Positions 37,915-47,161 of a stretch of 64,000 bases of DNA are shown here, in pieces. Location of the stretch: the NCBI GenBank assembly GCA_021781575.1, contig JAJXWP010000011.1, forward strand, positions 1-64,000, read 5' to 3'. A program made the translations under genes and the position numbers. The notes under the pieces were generated by a model, which saw nothing but the letters and a program-made list of their open reading frames with translations, made no database searches and had not been told where the DNA came from. Numbering within the stretch: the first letter of the stretch is position 1; each line of letters begins with the position of its first letter. The stretch comes from Pseudomonadota bacterium. GTDB lineage: Bacteria; Pseudomonadota; Alphaproteobacteria; Rhodospirillales; Magnetospirillaceae.

Positions 37915-38445
37915 TTATTTTCCCGTCGCCACAACCTCAAGCAACGCCAGCAGGCCGCCCAACAGCTTTTCCGGTGTGGGCGGGCAGCCGGGGATGGCAA
38001 GATCCACCGCCACCACGTTGTGGACGCCGTCCTTTACCGCATAGCTGCCGGCGAAACACCCGCCATCGATGGCGCAATCGCCCATTGCCACCACCCATTT
38101 CGGATTCGGCGCGGCATTGTAGGTCCGTTGCAACGCCACCGCCATATTGTTGGTCACCGGCCCGGTGACCAGGAGCACGTCGGCATGGCGCGGACTGGCG
38201 ACGAAGCGGATGCCGAAGCGTTCGAGATCGTAGACGGGGCCGTTGACGGCGTTGACCTCCAGCTCGCAGCCGTTGCACGAGCCGGCATCCACCTCGCGGA
38301 TGCACAGGCTGCGCCCCAGCCTGGCCTGGGCCCGTTCGCCCAAGCGCAGCCCCAACTGCTCTATCCCCAGGGGATCGGGACCCGGCCCGTCGATGGTCCG
38401 CGGGCCGTGCAGCAGTTCCTTGGCGATCAGACGCATCAGCGACAT
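37915..38445 (-). CDS. hyfI: Hydrogenase-4/complex I small subunit (NuoB/HyfI-like)
   Basis: 176 aa. It carries the N2-type 4Fe-4S cluster nearest the active site. All four ligands are present: C57 and C60 (SCNGCE), C124 (MGDCA) and C154 (IPGCPP). So electron entry to the quinone- or substrate-side pocket is likely functional, although the large subunit lacks NiFe ligands. Last gene of the six-gene operon, 13 nt after hyfG. Confidence 0.9.
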   Translation of the reverse strand: MSLMRLIAKELLHGPRTIDGPGPDPLGIEQLGLRLGERAQARLGRSLCIREVDAGSCNGCELEVNAVNGPVYDLERFGIRFVASPRHADVLLVTGPVTNNMAVALQRTYNAAPNPKWVVAMGDCAIDGGCFAGSYAVKDGVHNVVAVDLAIPGCPPTPEKLLGGLLALLEVVATGK

Positions 38446-38458
38446 GGTGACCCCCGGC

Positions 38459-39979
38459 TCATAGATCTACCCCGGAATAGGCGCAGTTGAACGATTTGTT
38501 GCACAACGGGAAGTCGGCGATGATGTTGCCCTCGATGGCCGCTTCCAAGAGCGGCCACTGGAACCACGAGGGGTCGCGCGGATGGCAGCGGACCACCCGA
38601 CCGACCTCGGACACCCGGACCCACATCAGGATTTCGCCGCGGAAGCCTTCGATCAGAGCCATGCCCTCGCCCGGCCGGGTGGGGATCGGCTTGTGCAGCG
38701 GCCCACCCGGCATGTCCCGAAGAATCTGCTCGATCAGTTTCAGGCTTTGGCGCGCCTCCTCCACCCGGACCCAAACCCGGGCATTGACATCGCCCGAGGC
38801 CAGCACCGGCACGTCGAAATCAAGTTCGTCATACGGCGGATAGCCCGGATCCTTGCGGGCGTCACCGGCCTGGGACGAAGCCCGCCCGACCACTCCGCCG
38901 GCGCCGAAGCGATGTGCCAGCGACGCCTGGACAACTCCGGTTCCGACGGTTCGGTCCTGCAGGCTGGGCAGATCGTCATAGGCGTCGACCAGAGCGTTGA
39001 AAGGCCTGCGCAGGTCGTTGAGCAGTCCGCGCAGGATGCTGGCTCCCTCGCGCGTCAGGTCGGCCGCCACGCCGCCCGGCACCACCTTGTCCATCAGCAG
39101 GCGATGGCCGAAACAGGCCTCGTTGGCCTGCAGCACCTGCTCGCGCAGGGTCATGCATCGGGCCAGCATGAAACCGAAGGCGGCGTCGTTGCAGATGCCG
39201 CCGATATCGGCCAGGTGGTTGGCCAAGCGCTCCAGTTCGGCCATCAGGGCGCGCAGCCAGTGAGCCCGGGGCGGCGCCTCCATGGCCGTGGCGGCCTCCA
39301 CCGCCCTGGCGAAGGCGATGGCATAGGCGACCGTGCTGTCGCCCGACAGCCGCCCGGCCAGGCGGGCCGCTTCGGCGACGGTCTTGCCGGCCATCAGCGC
39401 CTCGACGCCCTTGTGGGTGTAACCCATCCGCTGTTCCAGCCGGACCACCGTCTCACCCGCGCATGTGAACCGGAAATGCCCGGGTTCGATCACGCCGGCA
39501 TGCACCGGCCCGACCGGGACCTGATGGAGGCTCTCGCCCTCGACCGGCAGAAAGCGGTACTCGACGGGTTGCTGCGCCGCCGGGCCGCGGCTCAGCGCCA
39601 AGGGCGTGGTAGCGGGCCAGCGACCGTGATCCAGCCAGGGACGCCCGTCGGCCAGATCGGTCGGGGTCAGGCCGTAGAGATCGCGAATGGCCCGTTCCAG
39701 ACGAATCGCCGAAGGCCGGACCTGGGACAGCGAAGGGAAGCGGCGTTCCGGGCAGGGCAAGGAGGCCACTGCTATCGCCCCCGCCTCCTCGTCGCGCAGC
39801 GCCAGATGCACCTCACTGGCGTCGCCCCACAGGCCCAGCAGCGCCCATTCGGCCACCGCCAATTGACGGATCATGGCGATCCAGGCGCGTTCATCCAACA
39901 GGTAGCGGGGCCACGGGCGGTGGCTGGGGACCTCGCGGCCGCCGCCCAAATATTCCATCAGTGTGAGATTGCCGAGCAT
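38459..39979 (-). CDS. hyfG: Hydrogenase-4-type large subunit lacking NiFe ligands (NuoC-NuoD fusion)
   Basis: 506 aa, homologous to HycE/HyfG: NuoC-like N-terminus (about 1-125), NuoD/large-subunit region (about 150-506) with the family strings VPVGPVHAGVIEPGHFRF and MGYTHKGVEALM. In NiFe enzymes a CGxC motif follows near RVCGICG; here the matching stretch is GRLSGDSTVAY (209-218), with no cysteine. At the C-terminus, where DPCxxC is expected, the chain ends DFPLCNKSFNCAYSGVDL, with C493 and C499 five residues apart and no CxxC. A NiFe centre is thus very unlikely. This matches the 'energy-converting hydrogenase-related' (Ehr) type. Confidence 0.88.
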   Translation of the reverse strand: MLGNLTLMEYLGGGREVPSHRPWPRYLLDERAWIAMIRQLAVAEWALLGLWGDASEVHLALRDEEAGAIAVASLPCPERRFPSLSQVRPSAIRLERAIRDLYGLTPTDLADGRPWLDHGRWPATTPLALSRGPAAQQPVEYRFLPVEGESLHQVPVGPVHAGVIEPGHFRFTCAGETVVRLEQRMGYTHKGVEALMAGKTVAEAARLAGRLSGDSTVAYAIAFARAVEAATAMEAPPRAHWLRALMAELERLANHLADIGGICNDAAFGFMLARCMTLREQVLQANEACFGHRLLMDKVVPGGVAADLTREGASILRGLLNDLRRPFNALVDAYDDLPSLQDRTVGTGVVQASLAHRFGAGGVVGRASSQAGDARKDPGYPPYDELDFDVPVLASGDVNARVWVRVEEARQSLKLIEQILRDMPGGPLHKPIPTRPGEGMALIEGFRGEILMWVRVSEVGRVVRCHPRDPSWFQWPLLEAAIEGNIIADFPLCNKSFNCAYSGVDL

Positions 39980-39985
39980 CGTGCG

Positions 39986-41482
39986 CTATCCGAGCAGCTT
40001 CGCCACCGCCTGGAACCAGGCGACCAGGGGACCGGGCAGGTAAATGCCGGCGACCAGGGCGAGAACCAGATGGGAGATCAGAGGCAGCATGCCGGCGACA
40101 CGCGTGAGACGGCTCAACCGCACCGTCTCGCCATAGCCCGACAACTCGCTGGGCGGCCCGAAGGCCATGCTCTGCAGGCGGAGGATCAGCGCCCCGAAGG
40201 CGATCGCCAGCCCGAGGATCACCGGGATGCCGAGCAGCGGATTGCTGGCGAAGGTCGAACTGATCACCAGGAACTCGCTCATGAAGACGCCGAGCGGCGG
40301 CAAGCCGGCGATGGCCAGCACGGCGATGACGAACGCCCAGCCGAGAAACGGCATGCTCACCGTCAGGCCGCGGATATCGGCGATGCGTTTGGTGCCGGCG
40401 CTTTGCGAAATGAGCCCGACGGCGAAAAAGATCGCCGATTTCACCAGGCTGTGCATGGTCATGTGCAAGAGACCGGCGAAGTTCGCCAGGGTGCCCCCCA
40501 TGCCGAAGGCGAAGGTAATGATGCCCATATGCTCGACCGAACTGTAGGCGAACAGGCGCTTGATGTCGCCGCGGCGGTACAGCATGAAGGCGGCGACGAA
40601 AATCGACGTGCAGCCCATGCCGATCATCAGCGGCCCGGGTTGCAGGGCGTGGCCGTTGGCCGCCACCAGCATCTTGAAGCGCAGCAGGGCGTAGAGCGCG
40701 ACATTGAGCAGCAGACCCGACAGCACCGCCGAGATGGGCGTCGGGCCTTCGGCATGGGCGTCGGGCAGCCAGGCATGGAGAGGCGCCAAGCCGACCTTGG
40801 TGCCATAGCCGACCAGCAGAAAGACGAAGGCCAAGCTGATCAGTTCCGGCTGGAAGGCGCCGGCCCGCTCGATCATTTGGGTCCAGGCCATCGCCGCCAT
40901 GCCGTCCCCCATCACCGGCTGTGCGGCCAGATAGACCAGGACGGTGCCGAACAGGGCCAGTCCGATGCCGACGCTGCACAGGATGAAGTATTTCCACGCC
41001 GCCTCGATGGCTTCGCGAGTCCGGAACAGGCTGACCATCAGCACCGTGGTCAACGTCGCCGCTTCGACCGCCACCCACATCACGCCGATATTGTTGGCGG
41101 TCAGGGCCAGCAGCATGGTGAACAGGAAGGCCTGGTACATCGCGTGGTAGAATCGCAGATGTTTCGGCGACAGGCGCCGCGCCTTGCTTTCCCGGCCGAT
41201 ATAGGCCGACGAGAACAAGGCGGTGGTAAAGCCGACGAACGCCGTCAGGACCACCAGGTAGATGTTGAAGTCGTCGATGAAGAGCAGCTGGTTTTCGCCC
41301 GGCCGCTGGACAAACAGGAACAGCGAACTGGCCACGGTGCCGGCCGACACCACCACGTTGAGGACCGCCGCGGCGCGCCAGCGCGGCACGAGGGCGAGGA
41401 CGCCGCTGCCGATCAGAGGAAAACCGAGGATCCACAGGACCGGGTCATGGAATTGAAGCGGCAGGAGGGCGGAGGCCGGCAT
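39986..41482 (-). CDS. hyfF: Antiporter-like membrane subunit HyfF
   Basis: 498 aa, about 14 hydrophobic segments, Mrp/NuoN/L-type proton- or ion-translocating subunit. Conserved charged intramembrane features include WVAVEAATL and the lysine of GYGTKVGLAPLHAWLPDAHAEGPTPISAVLSG. The start ATG 41482 overlaps the hyfE stop (TAATG). It would pump ions when the peripheral arm turns over. Confidence 0.92.
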   Translation of the reverse strand: MPASALLPLQFHDPVLWILGFPLIGSGVLALVPRWRAAAVLNVVVSAGTVASSLFLFVQRPGENQLLFIDDFNIYLVVLTAFVGFTTALFSSAYIGRESKARRLSPKHLRFYHAMYQAFLFTMLLALTANNIGVMWVAVEAATLTTVLMVSLFRTREAIEAAWKYFILCSVGIGLALFGTVLVYLAAQPVMGDGMAAMAWTQMIERAGAFQPELISLAFVFLLVGYGTKVGLAPLHAWLPDAHAEGPTPISAVLSGLLLNVALYALLRFKMLVAANGHALQPGPLMIGMGCTSIFVAAFMLYRRGDIKRLFAYSSVEHMGIITFAFGMGGTLANFAGLLHMTMHSLVKSAIFFAVGLISQSAGTKRIADIRGLTVSMPFLGWAFVIAVLAIAGLPPLGVFMSEFLVISSTFASNPLLGIPVILGLAIAFGALILRLQSMAFGPPSELSGYGETVRLSRLTRVAGMLPLISHLVLALVAGIYLPGPLVAWFQAVAKLLG

Positions 41483-42153
41483 TACTGGCGCTCCCCGCGG
41501 AAGGTTTCCAGATAGGCGAGATCCAGGGTGTCGAACCGCTCGCGAATGCGGAAGAAGAAGATACCGAACAGGGTCATCGCCACCAGCACCGAAAAGGCGA
41601 TGCTGATCTCGACCACCAGCGGCATGCCCCTGGCGCCGACCGCGGCGAGAATCAGGCCGTTCTCCAGGGCCATGAAGCCGACCACCTGGGTCACCGCGTT
41701 TCGCCGGGTGATCATCATCAACAAGCCCAGCAGCACCACCGACATGGCGATGGCCAGGCTTTCGCGGGTGATCGCCCCGGCCCCGGAAGTCACCGGCAGC
41801 ACCAGGACGATGGACAGCGCCACCAGCCCGACGCCGGCGATCATGGTGGGACCGATGCCCAGCGCCGTCTCCACCGTCCGGTGAATACCCAGGCGCTTGA
41901 CCAGCCAGCCCAAGGTCAGCGGCACCGCGACGCCCTTGAACAGCAGGGCGATCAGCGCCGTGGCGTAGAGATGCGGCGCGTGCTGGACGAAGCCTTGCCA
42001 GGCGGCGGCCAGGGCCAGGGCCATGGCCTGCCAGGAATAGGCGCGGATCACCGCCGACATGCGCCGTTGATAAAGCAGGGCGAAGCCCATCATCAGGACG
42101 ACGGCGCCGATCAGATGGGCCGTGTGGTATTCGAACTGGGTCGTCAGCATCAT
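41482..42153 (-). CDS. hyfE: Membrane subunit HyfE
   Basis: 223 aa, six to seven hydrophobic segments, the HyfE family (MnhC/NuoK-like combined with extra helices). ATG 42153 overlaps the hyfC stop (ATGA); a second ATG directly follows at 42150. HyfE is absent from hydrogenase-3 (Hyc) and marks the hydrogenase-4 type membrane arm. Confidence 0.9.
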   Translation of the reverse strand: MMLTTQFEYHTAHLIGAVVLMMGFALLYQRRMSAVIRAYSWQAMALALAAAWQGFVQHAPHLYATALIALLFKGVAVPLTLGWLVKRLGIHRTVETALGIGPTMIAGVGLVALSIVLVLPVTSGAGAITRESLAIAMSVVLLGLLMMITRRNAVTQVVGFMALENGLILAAVGARGMPLVVEISIAFSVLVAMTLFGIFFFRIRERFDTLDLAYLETFRGERQ

Positions 42154-43097
42154 ACCGCCTCGGACACGTACAGGAAGATCGTTGCCAGCAGGGCAAGCAA
42201 CAGGGCGCCGCCCAGGTAGTCGGCGACACGGAAGACCCGCATCTTGGCGATGGAGGTCTCGAACACGCCGAGCGCCACCGACATGACGCCGATCTTGCCC
42301 AGCCATGCCGCCAAGCCAAGGCCGAGGCCGCCGAGGCCGCTGCCCTCGACGGCCATGCCCCAGGGGAAGAACAGGCAGCTGATGATCGACATGAACAACT
42401 GCAGGCGGATCATCGCCGCCGCCTCCAGCAGCGCCAGGTGGCGGCCGGAATATTCCAGCACCATCGCCTCGTGCACCATGGTCAGCTCCAGATGCGTCGC
42501 CGGGTTGTCGACGGGGATGCGCCCGTTCTCGGCGATGGCGATCATCACCAGGACGCCGAGCGCCAGGCCCGCCGACACCTCGAGGCCGACATGGCCGGAC
42601 AGCACGAAAGCGGCGATATTGGCCGGTGCCGTGGTATGCGCCAGCAGCGACAGGCTGAAGATGACGGTGAGGATCCCCGGCTCGGCAATCGAGGCGATGA
42701 ACATCTCGCGGCTGGCGCCCAAGCCCCCGAAGGCGGTGCCGACGTCAAGCCCGGCGAGCGCGGTGAAGAACCGACCCGTCGCCAGCAGGGCGACCAGGGC
42801 GATCAGGTCGGCCGCCGGGGTCATCAGCATATTGGTGGTGAAGGTCGGCATGATGGTGCCGGCCAAGGCGACACAAACGAACACCAGATAGGGTGTGATG
42901 CGGAACAGCCAGGTCGCCGAGTCGGCGATCACGGTTTCCTTATGCAGCAGGCGCCACAGGTCGCGATAGGGCTGCAGCACGGAAGCGCCGCGGCGCCCTT
43001 GCAGGCGAGCCTTGGTGAGGCGGACGATCCCGGTGACCATCGGCGCGAAGCCGACGACCAGCCAGGTGTGGACGATGCCAAGGAGGAAGGCGGTCAT
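42150..43097 (-). CDS. hyfC: Membrane subunit HyfC/HycD (NuoH-like)
   Basis: 315 aa, eight hydrophobic segments, homologous to NuoH, which joins the peripheral and membrane arms. The conserved NuoH-type loops are visible: LLHKETVIADSATWLF and NGRIPVDNPATHLELTMVHEAM. The start ATG 43097 overlaps the hyfB stop (ATGA). The longer upstream reading is a shadow of hyfB. Confidence 0.93.
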   Translation of the reverse strand: MTAFLLGIVHTWLVVGFAPMVTGIVRLTKARLQGRRGASVLQPYRDLWRLLHKETVIADSATWLFRITPYLVFVCVALAGTIMPTFTTNMLMTPAADLIALVALLATGRFFTALAGLDVGTAFGGLGASREMFIASIAEPGILTVIFSLSLLAHTTAPANIAAFVLSGHVGLEVSAGLALGVLVMIAIAENGRIPVDNPATHLELTMVHEAMVLEYSGRHLALLEAAAMIRLQLFMSIISCLFFPWGMAVEGSGLGGLGLGLAAWLGKIGVMSVALGVFETSIAKMRVFRVADYLGGALLLALLATIFLYVSEAV

Positions 43098-45106
43098 TGC
43101 TGGCGTATGGCGACGATGAGGAGAAGGACGACCAGGGTTGTGAACATCAGGAACAGGTAGCGCCGCACCGTCAGGAACTGCAGGCGGTTGACGCGGTCGG
43201 CGATGGCGTCGACCACGCGCAGGATGCCCAGATAGAGCCCGTCCCACACCGGGTCGGTCATGCGCAACTCGAACCGCGCCGGCCGCAGATCGCCGGGCGG
43301 CGGCATGTCGACCTCCTCCCGGGCGCGGAACACGACGCTGCCGAAGACACGGCGCAGCGGCTGCGAGAAGCTGTCGGCCGAGTACTGGGCGTCGACGATG
43401 TCCTCCTGATGGCCGCAGTCCCAGGCCGGCGCCGGCCGCACGCGGCGGGTGCCGAACAGGCGCAGGGCGATCACCGTGGTCGCCATCAGGCCGATGAAGG
43501 TGAAGAGCAGCATGGTGGCCGAGTAGGATCCGTCCGTCGGGCTGATCGGCGACAGCCAGGGCCAGCCCAGCAGCGCGGTGGGCAATGGCACCTTGGCCAG
43601 AGGTTCGACCACGGTAGCAATGCCGGCGGTGGCCATCACCGGAAACAGGCCGAGGCACAGGCAGGCCAGTGCCGGGAGAGCCATCGCCACCTGCATGATG
43701 AACGGTACCTCGGAGGCATGCCGGGCTTCCGCCGAGCGGGGCCGGCCAAGAAACACGATGCCGAAGGCGCGGACGAAGCAGGTTCCGGCGAAGGCCGCCG
43801 CCAGGGCCATGGCGACGCCGACCACGGGAACGCCGAAGCGCATCGCCCAGTGGGCGATGGTGGGGCCATGGAACAGGCTCTGGAAGATCAGCCACTCGGA
43901 AACGAAGCCGTTGAGCGGCGGCAGGGCGGAGATGGCGGCGGCACCGACGAGGAAGGTCAGCCCGGTCACCGGCATGCGGTTCAACAAACCGCCCAGTCTG
44001 TCGAGACGGCGTTCGCCGGTGGCCGTCAGTATGGCGCCCGAACCGAGGAACAGCAGGGTCTTGAACAGCGAGTGGTTGACCACGTGGTAGAGCGCCGCCA
44101 GCAGGGCGACCGCCGACAGCGTCGCCGCGCCATGGTCGCGGAACGCCGCCGCAAGGCCCAGCGCGATGAGGATGATGCCGATGTTCTCGACCGTCGAATA
44201 GGCCAGCAGGGTCTTCAGGTCGCGCTGGAACAGGGCGTAGAGCACGCCCAGTACGGCGGTCACGGCGCCGATCACCATGATCAGGAAGCCCCACTCCCAG
44301 CCGATGTCGCTCCTGAGGTCGAACAGGATGCGGATCAACCCGTAGATCGCCACTTTGGTCATCACCCCGGACATCAGGGCCGATACATGACTGGGCGCCG
44401 CCGGGTGGGCCAGCGGCAGCCAAGCGTGCAGCGGCGCCATGCCGGCCTTCGAGCCGGCGCCCAGCAGGGCCAGCACCACCACCAGACCGGCCGCCAAGGG
44501 GCCGAGATGTGCCGCCCGCATGGCCTCGAATCCGTAGGCACCGGTGTGACCGGCCATCAGTCCGAAGGCGGCCAGCAGGCAGAAGGTGCCGAACGCCGCC
44601 ATCACCAGATAGACCAGCCCAGCCCGCCGCGCTTCCGGATTGGTGTGGTCGGACAGCACCAGCAGCCAGGACGACAGCGACATGAATTCCCACGAGACCA
44701 GGAAAACGAAGGCGTCGTCGGCCACCAGAACGCCGTTCATGCCGAACAGGAACAGTGGGTAGAGCGGAGTGACCCGCTTGGCCTCGGGCAGGTGGCTGCC
44801 ATAGGCGATGCCGAACAGGCTGATCAGCGCCGACGGCGAATTGATCGCCATCAGGAAAAAGGTCGACAGGCTGTCCAGCCGGAAATGCGCCTGCAGCCAG
44901 GGAATGCCGATGGGCAGCACGGCCGCCGGGACCGCCTCATGCCCGGAGCGGGCCATGTGGAACAGGGCGTCGCCGGCGAGGATGGCGCAGAATGCCGCAC
45001 AGGCTGCGTAGGTCAGTGGGTGAATCCAGTGGCGCCCATTGAACAGCAGGGCAAAGAGCCCCAGGGCCAGAAAAGCCCCGAGAACGGTTCCGACGATCAT
45101 CGGCAA
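43094..45106 (-). CDS. hyfB: Antiporter-like membrane subunit HyfB
   Basis: 670 aa, about 16 hydrophobic segments, NuoL/MrpA-type ion-translocating subunit. The intramembrane motifs GSKAGMAPLHAWLPLAHPAAPSHVSALMSG and the broken-helix region are present. It has the extended C-terminus of HyfB/HycC with a GHQEDIVDAQYSADSF segment. First gene of hyfB-C-E-F-G-I; all six are coupled by overlaps or short gaps. Confidence 0.93.
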   Translation of the reverse strand: MPMIVGTVLGAFLALGLFALLFNGRHWIHPLTYAACAAFCAILAGDALFHMARSGHEAVPAAVLPIGIPWLQAHFRLDSLSTFFLMAINSPSALISLFGIAYGSHLPEAKRVTPLYPLFLFGMNGVLVADDAFVFLVSWEFMSLSSWLLVLSDHTNPEARRAGLVYLVMAAFGTFCLLAAFGLMAGHTGAYGFEAMRAAHLGPLAAGLVVVLALLGAGSKAGMAPLHAWLPLAHPAAPSHVSALMSGVMTKVAIYGLIRILFDLRSDIGWEWGFLIMVIGAVTAVLGVLYALFQRDLKTLLAYSTVENIGIILIALGLAAAFRDHGAATLSAVALLAALYHVVNHSLFKTLLFLGSGAILTATGERRLDRLGGLLNRMPVTGLTFLVGAAAISALPPLNGFVSEWLIFQSLFHGPTIAHWAMRFGVPVVGVAMALAAAFAGTCFVRAFGIVFLGRPRSAEARHASEVPFIMQVAMALPALACLCLGLFPVMATAGIATVVEPLAKVPLPTALLGWPWLSPISPTDGSYSATMLLFTFIGLMATTVIALRLFGTRRVRPAPAWDCGHQEDIVDAQYSADSFSQPLRRVFGSVVFRAREEVDMPPPGDLRPARFELRMTDPVWDGLYLGILRVVDAIADRVNRLQFLTVRRYLFLMFTTLVVLLLIVAIRQQ

Positions 45107-45506: not shown

Positions 45507-45884
45507 TCAGCCGGAGGCGTTGATGAGCTTGTCGGTCATCTCGCGGATGTTGCGGACGAAAATCATCAGAAGGCCGCGGATAAAGGGGTCTGTCTTGCGC
45601 AATTTCTGTTCCAGCGAGGCCTCGGTGACAATGATCACCGTCGTCGGCTCGACCGCGCGCGCCCTGGCCATGCGCGGCTTGTTGTCGACCAGGGCCATCT
45701 CGCCGAAAATTCCGCCGGTCGGGATATAGCCTAGAACCTTTTCCTGGCCGTCGGCCGTCCTCTTGCTGATTTCCACCCGACCTGTCTCGACCAGGTAGGC
45801 GCAGCGCCGCCCGACCTCCCCCTCCTTGAAGATGACCTCGCCCTCGCCATACACACGGCGATCAAGAACCTCATGTGTGGCCAT
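45507..45884 (-). CDS. Single-domain cyclic-nucleotide-binding protein
   Basis: 125 aa, a cNMP-binding (CAP-type) domain only, without a DNA-binding or output domain. The phosphate-binding cassette region reads GGIFGEMALVDNKPRMARARA, with the Glu-x-x-x-x-x-x-x-Arg pair used to bind the ribose phosphate. ATG 45884 has AGGAG 7 nt upstream. It lies upstream of, and on the same strand as, the hyf-like operon, separated by 400 nt, so a link is only positional. Confidence 0.85.
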   Translation of the reverse strand: MATHEVLDRRVYGEGEVIFKEGEVGRRCAYLVETGRVEISKRTADGQEKVLGYIPTGGIFGEMALVDNKPRMARARAVEPTTVIIVTEASLEQKLRKTDPFIRGLLMIFVRNIREMTDKLINASG

Positions 45885-46041
45885 GGAGCGACTCCTACCC
45901 AATGTCGGCACAAGACTGGCAGGCTAACACAAAAGGCTAGGCCATACAGCCACAGAGCGTAAGCCGCTGTGACTTGGGGCGCCGCCCCGCCGCCCCTATT
46001 TATTTTGATTGTTTCGTCGTCCGCAACCGCAGGAGCCGACC

Positions 46042-46276: not shown

Positions 46277-47161
46277 TCATTCGGAGACGACAGCGCCGCG
46301 CCGGGGAGGCCCGCTCATGTTCGAGCGGGCGCCAAGGGTTTGCGCCAGGACGTTGTGCAGATGGGACGGCGCCACCGGCTTTTGCAGAATCACCACACCC
46401 TGACCCCGGCTTTCGCGCAGGCGGCCGGCGGTCGCATCGCCCGTGATGATGATGCCCGGAATGAGCGCGTTGAACAGGCCCCGGATATTGCTTACCGCCG
46501 AGGTCCCGGTGCGCCCTCCGGCCAGCCGGTAGTCGGCGATAATCCCCGCCGGGCGACCGCCGTTGCGTCGCAGCAGCGCGATGACCTCGTCTTCCGAAGG
46601 CGCCGCCACCACCTCGAATTGCCATGCCTCGAGCAGCAGCCGCAGCCCTTCGAGCACCTGCTCCTCGTCGTCGATCACCACCAGCACCCGGCCAGCCGGC
46701 TCGCCCCCGCCCTTGCCGGCGACATCGGCGGGGTCTCCCATGGGAACCCGCAGAATGATGGAGGTCCCGGCGCCGGGCCGACTCTCGATGCGGACGGGAT
46801 GGCGCAGCAGGGAAACCAGTCGGTCGACCACCGCCAACCCCAAACCGGGCGCCGCCTCAGGCCGTTGGGCCGGCTTCTGTCCGCCCGCGCGACGCAATCC
46901 GGGGCCGGTGTCCCGCACTTCGATGTCCAATATGCCGGCATATTGCCGGGTGCCCACCAGCACCCGCCCGCTCGACGTATAGGCGATCGCGTTGGCCACG
47001 AGATGGTCTAGAATCTGCGCCAGCAGGGGCGGGTCGGAGCGAATGCGGGCCGTGCAGCGCGCCACACTCAGGGCGAGCCCGCGTTCGGCCGCCGCGGCGG
47101 CGAATCGGCGCTCAATTCGCAACAAGATCGGCTCGATGGAAAACTCGGTCGTTTCGACCAT
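46277..47161 (-). CDS. HATPase-receiver protein lacking the phosphoacceptor helix
   Basis: 294 aa. Residues about 40-145 form a GHKL/HATPase_c domain (N box around ILDHLVANAIAY, G1 DTGPGL, G2 GLGLAVV), about 160-280 a receiver domain (acidic VIDDE, phospho-Asp in IIADYRL, Lys in LQKPV). No HisKA/DHp dimerisation helix with a phosphorylatable histidine precedes the HATPase part. It may be the C-terminal half of a larger hybrid kinase or a stand-alone ATPase-receiver; a good GGAG precedes ATG 47161, which favours a real gene start. Confidence 0.78.
   Translation of the reverse strand: MVETTEFSIEPILLRIERRFAAAAAERGLALSVARCTARIRSDPPLLAQILDHLVANAIAYTSSGRVLVGTRQYAGILDIEVRDTGPGLRRAGGQKPAQRPEAAPGLGLAVVDRLVSLLRHPVRIESRPGAGTSIILRVPMGDPADVAGKGGGEPAGRVLVVIDDEEQVLEGLRLLLEAWQFEVVAAPSEDEVIALLRRNGGRPAGIIADYRLAGGRTGTSAVSNIRGLFNALIPGIIITGDATAGRLRESRGQGVVILQKPVAPSHLHNVLAQTLGARSNMSGPPRRGAVVSE

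Follow-up and report, generated by a model that had tools for sequence, protein, structure and literature searches.

A complex built from hydrogenase-type subunits that lack the ligands of a nickel-iron (NiFe) site raises the question of which electron carriers it serves and whether H2 is one of them. Such a complex is encoded on the minus strand at positions 37915 to 45106 of the 64,000-nucleotide stretch of contig JAJXWP010000011.1 (assembly GCA_021781575.1; Rhodospirillales, Magnetospirillaceae) analyzed here; we refer to this whole stretch as the window and number all positions within it. A preliminary description of the window recognized six complete, tightly coupled hyf genes and concluded that their product should couple an electron donor or acceptor other than H2 to ion pumping. 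The genes are as described: they follow the order hyfB-hyfC-hyfE-hyfF-hyfG-hyfI, all are intact, the first four overlap by 4, 4, and 1 bases, and hyfG and hyfI each follow a short gap, of 6 and 13 bases, respectively. The six-gene set is not due to chance, because at least 592 pattern matches were found in GTDB genomes, and a relative is encoded at 569 of the matches listed; we kept 80 of these relatives. Missing from the earlier description was that the gene set matches that of the Hyq complex of Azorhizobium caulinodans. We favor, at somewhat less than even confidence, the reading that Hyq pumps ions while passing electrons between quinone and a soluble carrier of low potential (ferredoxin or flavodoxin).

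The catalytic question centers on hyfG (hyqG; 38459 to 39979), which encodes a fused NuoC-NuoD/large-subunit homologue of 506 residues. Residue counts for HyfG refer to 158 relatives from fetched loci (rows), or to 132 distinct rows where stated. In an L-INS-i alignment of the window protein with Escherichia coli HyfG and HycE, the columns of the four NiFe cysteines are occupied by S212, S215, A500, and G503. The reported lack of both the CGxC motif and the C-terminal CxxC motif was thus confirmed; GRLSGDSTVA stands at residues 209 to 218, and the protein ends in ...DFPLCNKSFNCAYSGVDL. The relatives agree: position 212 is serine in 157 of 158 rows and alanine in the remaining one, position 215 is serine, alanine, or methionine, position 503 is glycine throughout, and cysteine occurs at none of these three positions in any of the 158 rows. 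Position 500 is serine, alanine, threonine, or asparagine, and never cysteine, in all 132 distinct rows. In addition, HyfG stops three residues past the last NiFe-cysteine column (G503 of 506), whereas E. coli HyfG and HycE continue; the tail beyond the last NiFe cysteine of the E. coli proteins is cut off by a maturation protease. On the strength of these sequence features, a NiFe hydrogenase can be excluded. The best match of HyfG in both sequence and fold was chain 7z0s_E, HycE. The structure model of HyfG had a mean predicted local distance difference test (pLDDT) score of 64, and the stretches 85 to 191 and 470 to 506, which form both sides of the pocket, scored below 50; therefore, we used only the overall fold and no pocket geometry. 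In a phylogenetic tree, 106 thinned relatives formed one supported clade separate from HycE, MbhL, and NuoD, with a long-branch warning that makes its exact placement unsafe.

The pocket has residues of its own. D214, K495, N498, and G503 are invariant in all 132 distinct rows, and D265, present in 156 of 158 rows, is an aspartate at the place of what we take to be its counterpart, Asp160 of the complex I 49-kDa subunit. The quinone-head pair of complex I is gone: its histidine is replaced by I164 in 156 of 158 rows and its tyrosine by G213 in 155 of 158, these being the quinone-head residues of the 49-kDa subunit named in a published account (PMC7684303). The glutamate E165 is retained in 156 of 158 rows and aligns with MbhL E21, the loop glutamate of MBH described there as key to proton reduction (PMC7684303). 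Judged by these residues, the HyfG-HyfI-HyfC pocket is unlike a NiFe site and also unlike the quinone-head site of complex I.

Three further cysteines of HyfG, C263, C493, and C499, correspond in spacing to Cys 258, 491, and 497 of HyqG, which are termed completely conserved in the Azorhizobium work (PMC3357923). At least one of the three is missing in 21 of the 132 distinct rows, including rows from Azospirillum, Telmatospirillum, and Contendobacter; C263 is replaced by alanine, glycine, or leucine, C493 by isoleucine, asparagine, leucine, or valine, and C499 by glycine, leucine, proline, or alanine. All three are replaced (by glycine or alanine, isoleucine, and leucine) in six divergent rows (L147, L148, L152, L155, L165, and L166). 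Because of these losses, the three cysteines are not obligatory ligands, and we rejected them as a metal site. In another group of rows (L149, L150, L151, L153, and L154), C263 and C499 are retained while position 493 is asparagine or valine.

Both the redox part and the membrane part of the complex look alive. hyfI (hyqI; 37915 to 38445) encodes a NuoB/small-subunit homologue of 176 residues that scores above the cutoff of the NCBIfam NuoB family. As reported, it retains four cysteines for one [4Fe-4S] cluster; among distinct rows, C57 and C60 are found in 100 of 100, C124 in 99 of 99, and C154 in 98 of 99. Their spacing is that of the hydrogenase CxxC, as in HycG, unlike the directly neighboring cysteines of complex I and the shortened motif of MBS. 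With the conserved loop and this cluster motif in place, the pocket is therefore hydrogenase-like in these two respects, devoid of metal ligands, and equipped with its own invariant residues. The two antiporter-type subunits of the earlier account are HyfB (hyqB; 43094 to 45106; NuoL/Mrp type, 670 residues, TTG start with an ATG possible at 45100) and HyfF (hyqF; 39986 to 41482; NuoM/N type, 498 residues). Both carry PF00361 and exceed the cutoffs of NCBIfam models for hydrogenase 4 subunits (NF005086, 816.8 bits against 667, and NF005043, 783.7 bits against 533, respectively). The membrane arm is completed by the NuoH-type anchor HyfC (hyqC; 42150 to 43097; 315 residues, PF00146) and the small membrane subunit HyfE (hyqE; 41482 to 42153; 223 residues), to which no Pfam family was assigned and which matches NF008556; the related NCBIfam models matched by HyfC, HyfE, and HyfG all scored below cutoff. 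Counting the charged and aromatic kinds of residue that are often functional, we found at least 98% conservation at 24 positions of HyfB (92 rows), 27 of HyfF (101 rows), 21 of HyfC (94 rows), and 5 of HyfE (97 rows), a count by residue kind that was not paired one by one with the pump residues of complex I. It is the conservation of these residues and of the HyfI cysteines that makes us regard both parts as probably functional.

No electron-input module was found nearby. E. coli queries run against the 64-kb window at an E value of 1e-4 found no HyfA, HyfH, HycF, HypA, HypB, HypC, HypD (partial query), or HycI, and no NuoE, NuoF, FdnG, PFOR, RsxC, or FixABCX, and a HyfD query hit only the positions of HyfB and HyfF. 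The absence of HycF/HyfH, HyfA, and HyfD from the window thus held up. The absence of hyp genes held for the window, by the same queries, and failed for the genome, where hypD lies on contig 73. This genome (4.48 Mb, 114 contigs) also has matches to the large-subunit family PF00374 on contigs 76, 73 (two), and 62 (pieces), at least three of them to true NiFe subunits. Contig 70 carries nifD, and complex I is represented by two NuoD genes. HyaE (PF07449) was not found in this genome and proved an uninformative marker.

The identification of the complex with Hyq rests on the order of the genes, the CxxC motifs that HyqG is stated to lack, three similarly spaced cysteines, and orthologues in the same species. 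The hyqRBCEFGI operon is described as holding the same six genes in the order B-C-E-F-G-I plus the regulator hyqR (PMC2650096), and HyqG proteins are stated to lack both CxxC motifs, with the catalytic site left undetermined by the authors (PMC3357923). Below 1 μM O2 on ammonium, the hyq mutant is reported to double in 9.5 h and its parent in 14 h (PMC3357923). Rhizobium leguminosarum, one of the species aligned there (PMC3357923), and Azospirillum brasilense, another of the published orthologue species, were recovered among the matches listed, and the HyfG of Rhizobium johnstonii 3841, found via DNA similarity, is 60% identical to that of the window. The nearest relatives by HyfG among the matches listed are Telmatospirillum and other Rhodospirillales. 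The window differs from Azorhizobium in its other flanking genes, in having no hyqR-like gene seen before hyfB, and in that no NifA site was found in the 900 bases preceding this gene.

The assignment to the Ehr type is also upheld at the level of motifs and subunit types (no NiFe CxxC, Mrp/NuoL-type subunits). The Ehr papers (PMC6349859, PMC10284858, PMC10432482) likewise describe group 4 hydrogenase relatives with Mrp-like antiporter subunits and no NiFe-binding motif, whose function is given as unknown or proposed; for some candidate phyla, the proposed partner is a formate dehydrogenase accompanied by NuoE/F-like genes. By contrast, E. coli queries found no such partner beside 103 Hyq loci. 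In the literature found under the two names, no paper combined "hyq" with "Ehr" or "Ehr complex."

The distribution of Hyq was examined in two samples, counted without correction for kinship: an order sample of 38 Hyq genomes and 161 others, from which G122 (34% identity) was excluded, and a phylum sample of 398 genomes, of which 61 have a relative, 21 of these at 50% identity or more. In the order sample, hypD is present in 35 of the 38 Hyq genomes, against 45 of the 161 others, and 3 of the 38 lack it. In the phylum sample, it is absent from 12 of the 21 genomes at 50% identity or more and from 26 of the 40 with a more distant relative. One genome without hypD (G247) was removed from further consideration since two true NiFe large subunits are encoded in it. 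In 13 distinct Hyq genomes from both samples, we detected neither hypD nor any NiFe large subunit besides HyfG, the weak NiFe match in 11 of them lying inside HyfG and 2 giving no match. A search for [FeFe] hydrogenase was negative in all 15 genomes covered (these 13, G000, and G247). Three of the 13 (G482, G413, and G337) are assembled in a single contig, and two (G086 and G469) have nifD. With no NiFe or FeFe system detected, any H2 handling in these 13 genomes would therefore lack known NiFe or FeFe chemistry.

Hyq is linked to nitrogen fixation in the order, where nifD is found in 33 of 38 Hyq genomes (12 of 15 outside the window's family) versus 27 of 161 others. The link is weaker in the phylum, with 7 of 21 genomes at 50% identity or more versus 34 of 377, and 12 of 61 versus 29 of 337 for all relatives. 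It is not general, because single-contig Hyq genomes without nifD exist, contrary to the published statement that the hyq operon is generally absent from nondiazotrophs (PMC2930871). The positive association with hypD, taken alone, would favor a hydrogenase function, but hypD is also associated with nifD in the order sample (56 of 60 versus 24 of 139). A full-length NuoD match was found in 32 of 33 Hyq genomes tested, and we therefore rejected the idea that Hyq is a general stand-in for complex I.

The exception, G043, is a reduced genome of 0.94 Mb with a guanine-plus-cytosine (GC) content of 0.33 (0.34 to 0.35 in its Hyq stretches). One of its contigs, C21, corresponds to L055, from a Rhodospirillaceae metagenome-assembled genome (MAG), with 268 of 288 sampled L055 50-mers matching. 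The end of contig C5 carries hyfB (665 residues) and the start of hyfC, and C21 carries hyfC, cut at the contig end, then hyfE, hyfF, hyfG, hyfI, and homologues of the rmuC and MscS genes of the window; the two contigs presumably adjoin. The HyfG of G043 keeps the motifs compared with E. coli except for P166, which is serine. There is no NuoD besides HyfG (PF00346), and contig C5 has only short NuoB and NuoCD pieces resembling the remains of complex I. Four adjacent frames match E. coli FixA, FixB, FixC, and FixX, below the curated NCBIfam cutoffs, FrdB and GlpC score above theirs, and menA, ubiE, atpA, and atpD were matched. E. coli queries found no NuoE/F, Rnf, NDH-2, PFOR, pyruvate or 2-oxoglutarate dehydrogenase, formate dehydrogenase N, cytochrome bd, HypB, or HypC; these queries may miss distant relatives, the MAG may miss pieces, and other pumps such as Na+-NQR were not looked for. 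Scans for heme-copper oxidase motifs (CcoN and CoxA) and family searches for nifD, hypD, and [FeFe] hydrogenase were likewise negative. Among the redox-driven pumps looked for in G043, none other than Hyq turned up, and FixABCX is the low-potential carrier system found; fumarate is likely the electron sink. The organism (L156, L180, and L217), AT rich, with complex I fragments, FixABCX-like genes, fumarate reductase, menA, and no terminal oxidase found, is possibly a host-associated anaerobe.

These observations are consistent with the reading introduced above, in which Hyq would be a minimal six-subunit relative of complex I, of the Ehr type, coupled to H+ or Na+ pumping through HyfB, HyfF, HyfC, and HyfE. 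We infer that a reduced carrier of the ferredoxin or flavodoxin type docks on HyfI and passes single electrons to its one [4Fe-4S] cluster, through which electrons would enter or leave. Quinone would be reduced in the HyfG-HyfI-HyfC cavity, where a proton-coupled step using E165, D214, or K495 may replace the complex I pair and drive ion movement along the membrane arm. FixABCX produces quinol and reduced carrier from NADH, so that with FixABCX upstream, the two systems would amount to a split complex I. When the membrane potential is high, Hyq may run in reverse and make reduced carrier, for example for nitrogenase, which is a major user of ferredoxin and flavodoxin in such cells. The reverse run would fit two properties reported for Azorhizobium. 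Expression of hyq requires NifA, and a hyq deletion makes growth on N2 about a fifth slower, hardly affects growth on ammonium, and leaves an N2-growth deficit that 20% H2 in the gas phase fails to abolish (PMC2650096).

Several results weigh against this carrier-quinone model. The quinone-head pair of complex I is missing. In the flanks of 103 loci, E. coli queries found no ferredoxin-type subunit (HyfH/HycF or HyfA) and no electron-input module, which makes direct docking on HyfI an assumption, and queries with the G043 proteins found no FixABCX there; the genome-wide search for FixABCX covers G043 only. nifD is absent from 14 of the 21 phylum genomes at 50% identity or more, and the association with nif ignores kinship and is paralleled by that with hypD. 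Finally, the published H2 phenotypes are not simply explained by carrier-quinone electron transfer.

Among the alternatives, pumping might be coupled to the reduction or oxidation of some other small soluble compound in the HyfG pocket, comparable to the polysulfide of MBS. The invariant polar D214, K495, and N498 would suit such a pocket, and MBS, as described, is itself a complex I relative that does such chemistry without the quinone-head residues (PMC7684303). However, the MBS cluster is there said to have an open iron in a motif three residues shorter, whereas HyfI keeps four cysteines in hydrogenase spacing, and no shared neighbor recognized in the 103 flanks hints at a substrate. We consider this explanation fairly unlikely.

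Slightly less probable in our judgment is the view of the Ludwig laboratory that Hyq is an H2:quinone oxidoreductase, an "endo-hydrogenase," with an unknown center other than NiFe. Its strength lies in the published Azorhizobium deletion mutants. In diazotrophic cultures, hyq deletion raises H2 evolution from 12 to 175, and from 16 to 540 in a hup deletion background, while about 80% of the H2 evolution below 1 μM O2 is credited to Hyq (61,000 falling to 14,000 in a hup deletion strain) (PMC3357923). Added H2 slightly helps a hup mutant growing on N2 (doubling time from 7.2 to 6.8 h) and does not help a hup hyq mutant (8.8 h in both cases) (PMC2650096). In nodules, H2 evolution is high only if hup and hyq have both been deleted, strains lacking 20 hup/hyp genes still recycle H2, and Rhodocista centenaria, which has hyq and no hup or hyp genes, is said to do so as well, the data not being presented (PMC2930871). 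The retained E165, the hydrogenase-type CxxC of HyfI, and the co-occurrence of Hyq with hypD in the order sample point the same way. Because these mutants change H2 uptake and evolution, the firm "not H2" of the preliminary description exceeds the evidence; what stands of that claim is that the coupling does not proceed by a NiFe site, the ligands being absent.

Against an H2:quinone oxidoreductase, none of the 158 rows has NiFe ligands, and the cysteines called completely conserved are variable. The published activity, H2 uptake at 20 μM O2 and evolution below 1 μM O2, was derived from mutants, without a cell-free assay in the text available (PMC3357923), and the published hyq deletion also takes out the regulator hyqR. 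In the nodule experiment, the double mutant evolved 27 μmol H2 and reduced 25 μmol C2H4 (Table 1 of PMC2930871). By our own arithmetic, 25 C2H4 equal 50 electrons and hence about 6 H2 at one H2 per N2; the observed value is about four times that, and the nodule numbers therefore need another explanation anyway. This suggests a shift in how electrons are allocated, or a further source of H2, and not a simple loss of recycling. Many Hyq genomes also lack nifD.

A further kind of hydrogenase, taking up and evolving H2 without a NiFe, FeFe, or Fe-only site, seems to us improbable. It would use the retained E165 and hydrogenase-type cluster, have D214, K495, and N498 in place of the metal ligands, and need no hyp gene, and its operation in cells without hyp genes would be implied by the reports on Azorhizobium and Rhodocista. 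Least probable of all is an ion antiporter or pH homeostasis device in which the redox part merely regulates or anchors, since its two antiporter-type subunits and the putative SulP- and TrkH-type genes recurring in 10 and 8 of the 103 flanks are set against conserved cluster cysteines and four conserved HyfG pocket residues, motifs kept even in the reduced G043, and neighbors of these two types that belong mostly to Competibacteraceae or to the rows nearest to these.

Hyq can be compared with several known systems. It shares with E. coli hydrogenase-4 and formate hydrogenlyase the subunit types, the loop GPxHxxxxEPGHFR, and a CxxC small subunit, and differs from them in lacking the NiFe cysteines, the protease-cut extension, HyfA, HyfD, and HyfH. 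Unlike group 4 [NiFe] hydrogenases, Hyq is not accompanied by hyp genes in every host, as the 13 genomes without a detected hypD show, although the window's own genome has hypD. With respiratory complex I it shares a homologous NuoB-C-D-H-L-M core and D265 at the place of Asp160, but it has six subunits, one cluster, and isoleucine and glycine for the quinone-head histidine and tyrosine. MBS of Pyrococcus is alike in being a complex I relative without the quinone-head residues; it is described as having a three-cysteine cluster, two remaining NiFe cysteines, and no E21 (PMC7684303), and Hyq is the opposite on each count.

Control by NifA does not extend to Hyq as a rule. Up to 900 bases before hyfB were scanned, with 48 of 84 loci usable and 36 dropped because the HyfB start was unplaced or the upstream DNA short. 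A sigma-54-like site was found at 11 of 48 loci (26% expected from shuffled sequences) and a NifA site at 3 of 48 (7% expected), and paired sites were found at none of the 48. As a positive control, the nif region of the window's genome (L157, contig C70) gave several paired sites, and we therefore rejected NifA control as a general rule. This negative result concerns regulation and not the complex itself.

The window's genome has a second complete six-gene copy on contig 34 (L015, 3863 to 10997), whose HyfG is 58% identical. Recent duplication was rejected as its source, because it groups with rhizobial and Competibacter rows and not with the window copy. A putative LuxR-type response regulator lies convergent behind it. 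In the window, a small protein with a cyclic-nucleotide-binding domain as its sole Pfam match (45507 to 45911) is encoded 400 bases upstream of hyfB on the same strand, and the gene at 46277 to 47161 encodes a 294-residue histidine kinase/receiver protein that resembles the C-terminal part of NahK/ErcS and seemingly lacks the sensor half. The neighbor survey was confined to the flanks of 103 loci, and its crude gene caller placed false genes inside operons. Its largest cluster is a small gene at 24 of 103 loci, mostly directly upstream, 23 of the 24 within 400 bases on the same strand; the R. johnstonii 3841 annotation calls it a helix-turn-helix regulator, the one member tested had no Pfam match, and the representative in L097 resembled a false frame. 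Putative SulP-type genes lie downstream of hyq in L062, L064, L067, L072, L077, L080, and L091, mostly Competibacteraceae, and putative TrkH-like genes upstream in L062, L067, L072, L080, and L091. The remaining neighbor clusters mostly track kinship.

Relatives of Hyq occur in 61 of 398 genomes of the phylum sample, 21 of them at 50% identity or more, and the substrate is unsettled in the literature found. The names Hyq and Ehr concern one kind of complex yet lead to opposite conclusions about H2. New here are the Hyq genomes without detected hydrogenase or hypD, the variability of the three cysteines, the absence of the quinone-head residues, and a reduced relative with Hyq and FixABCX-like genes. 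G086 and G469, which have Hyq and nifD and no detected hydrogenase or hypD, could decide the H2 question, and G043 could decide the question of the donor. The function of Hyq is now more testable.

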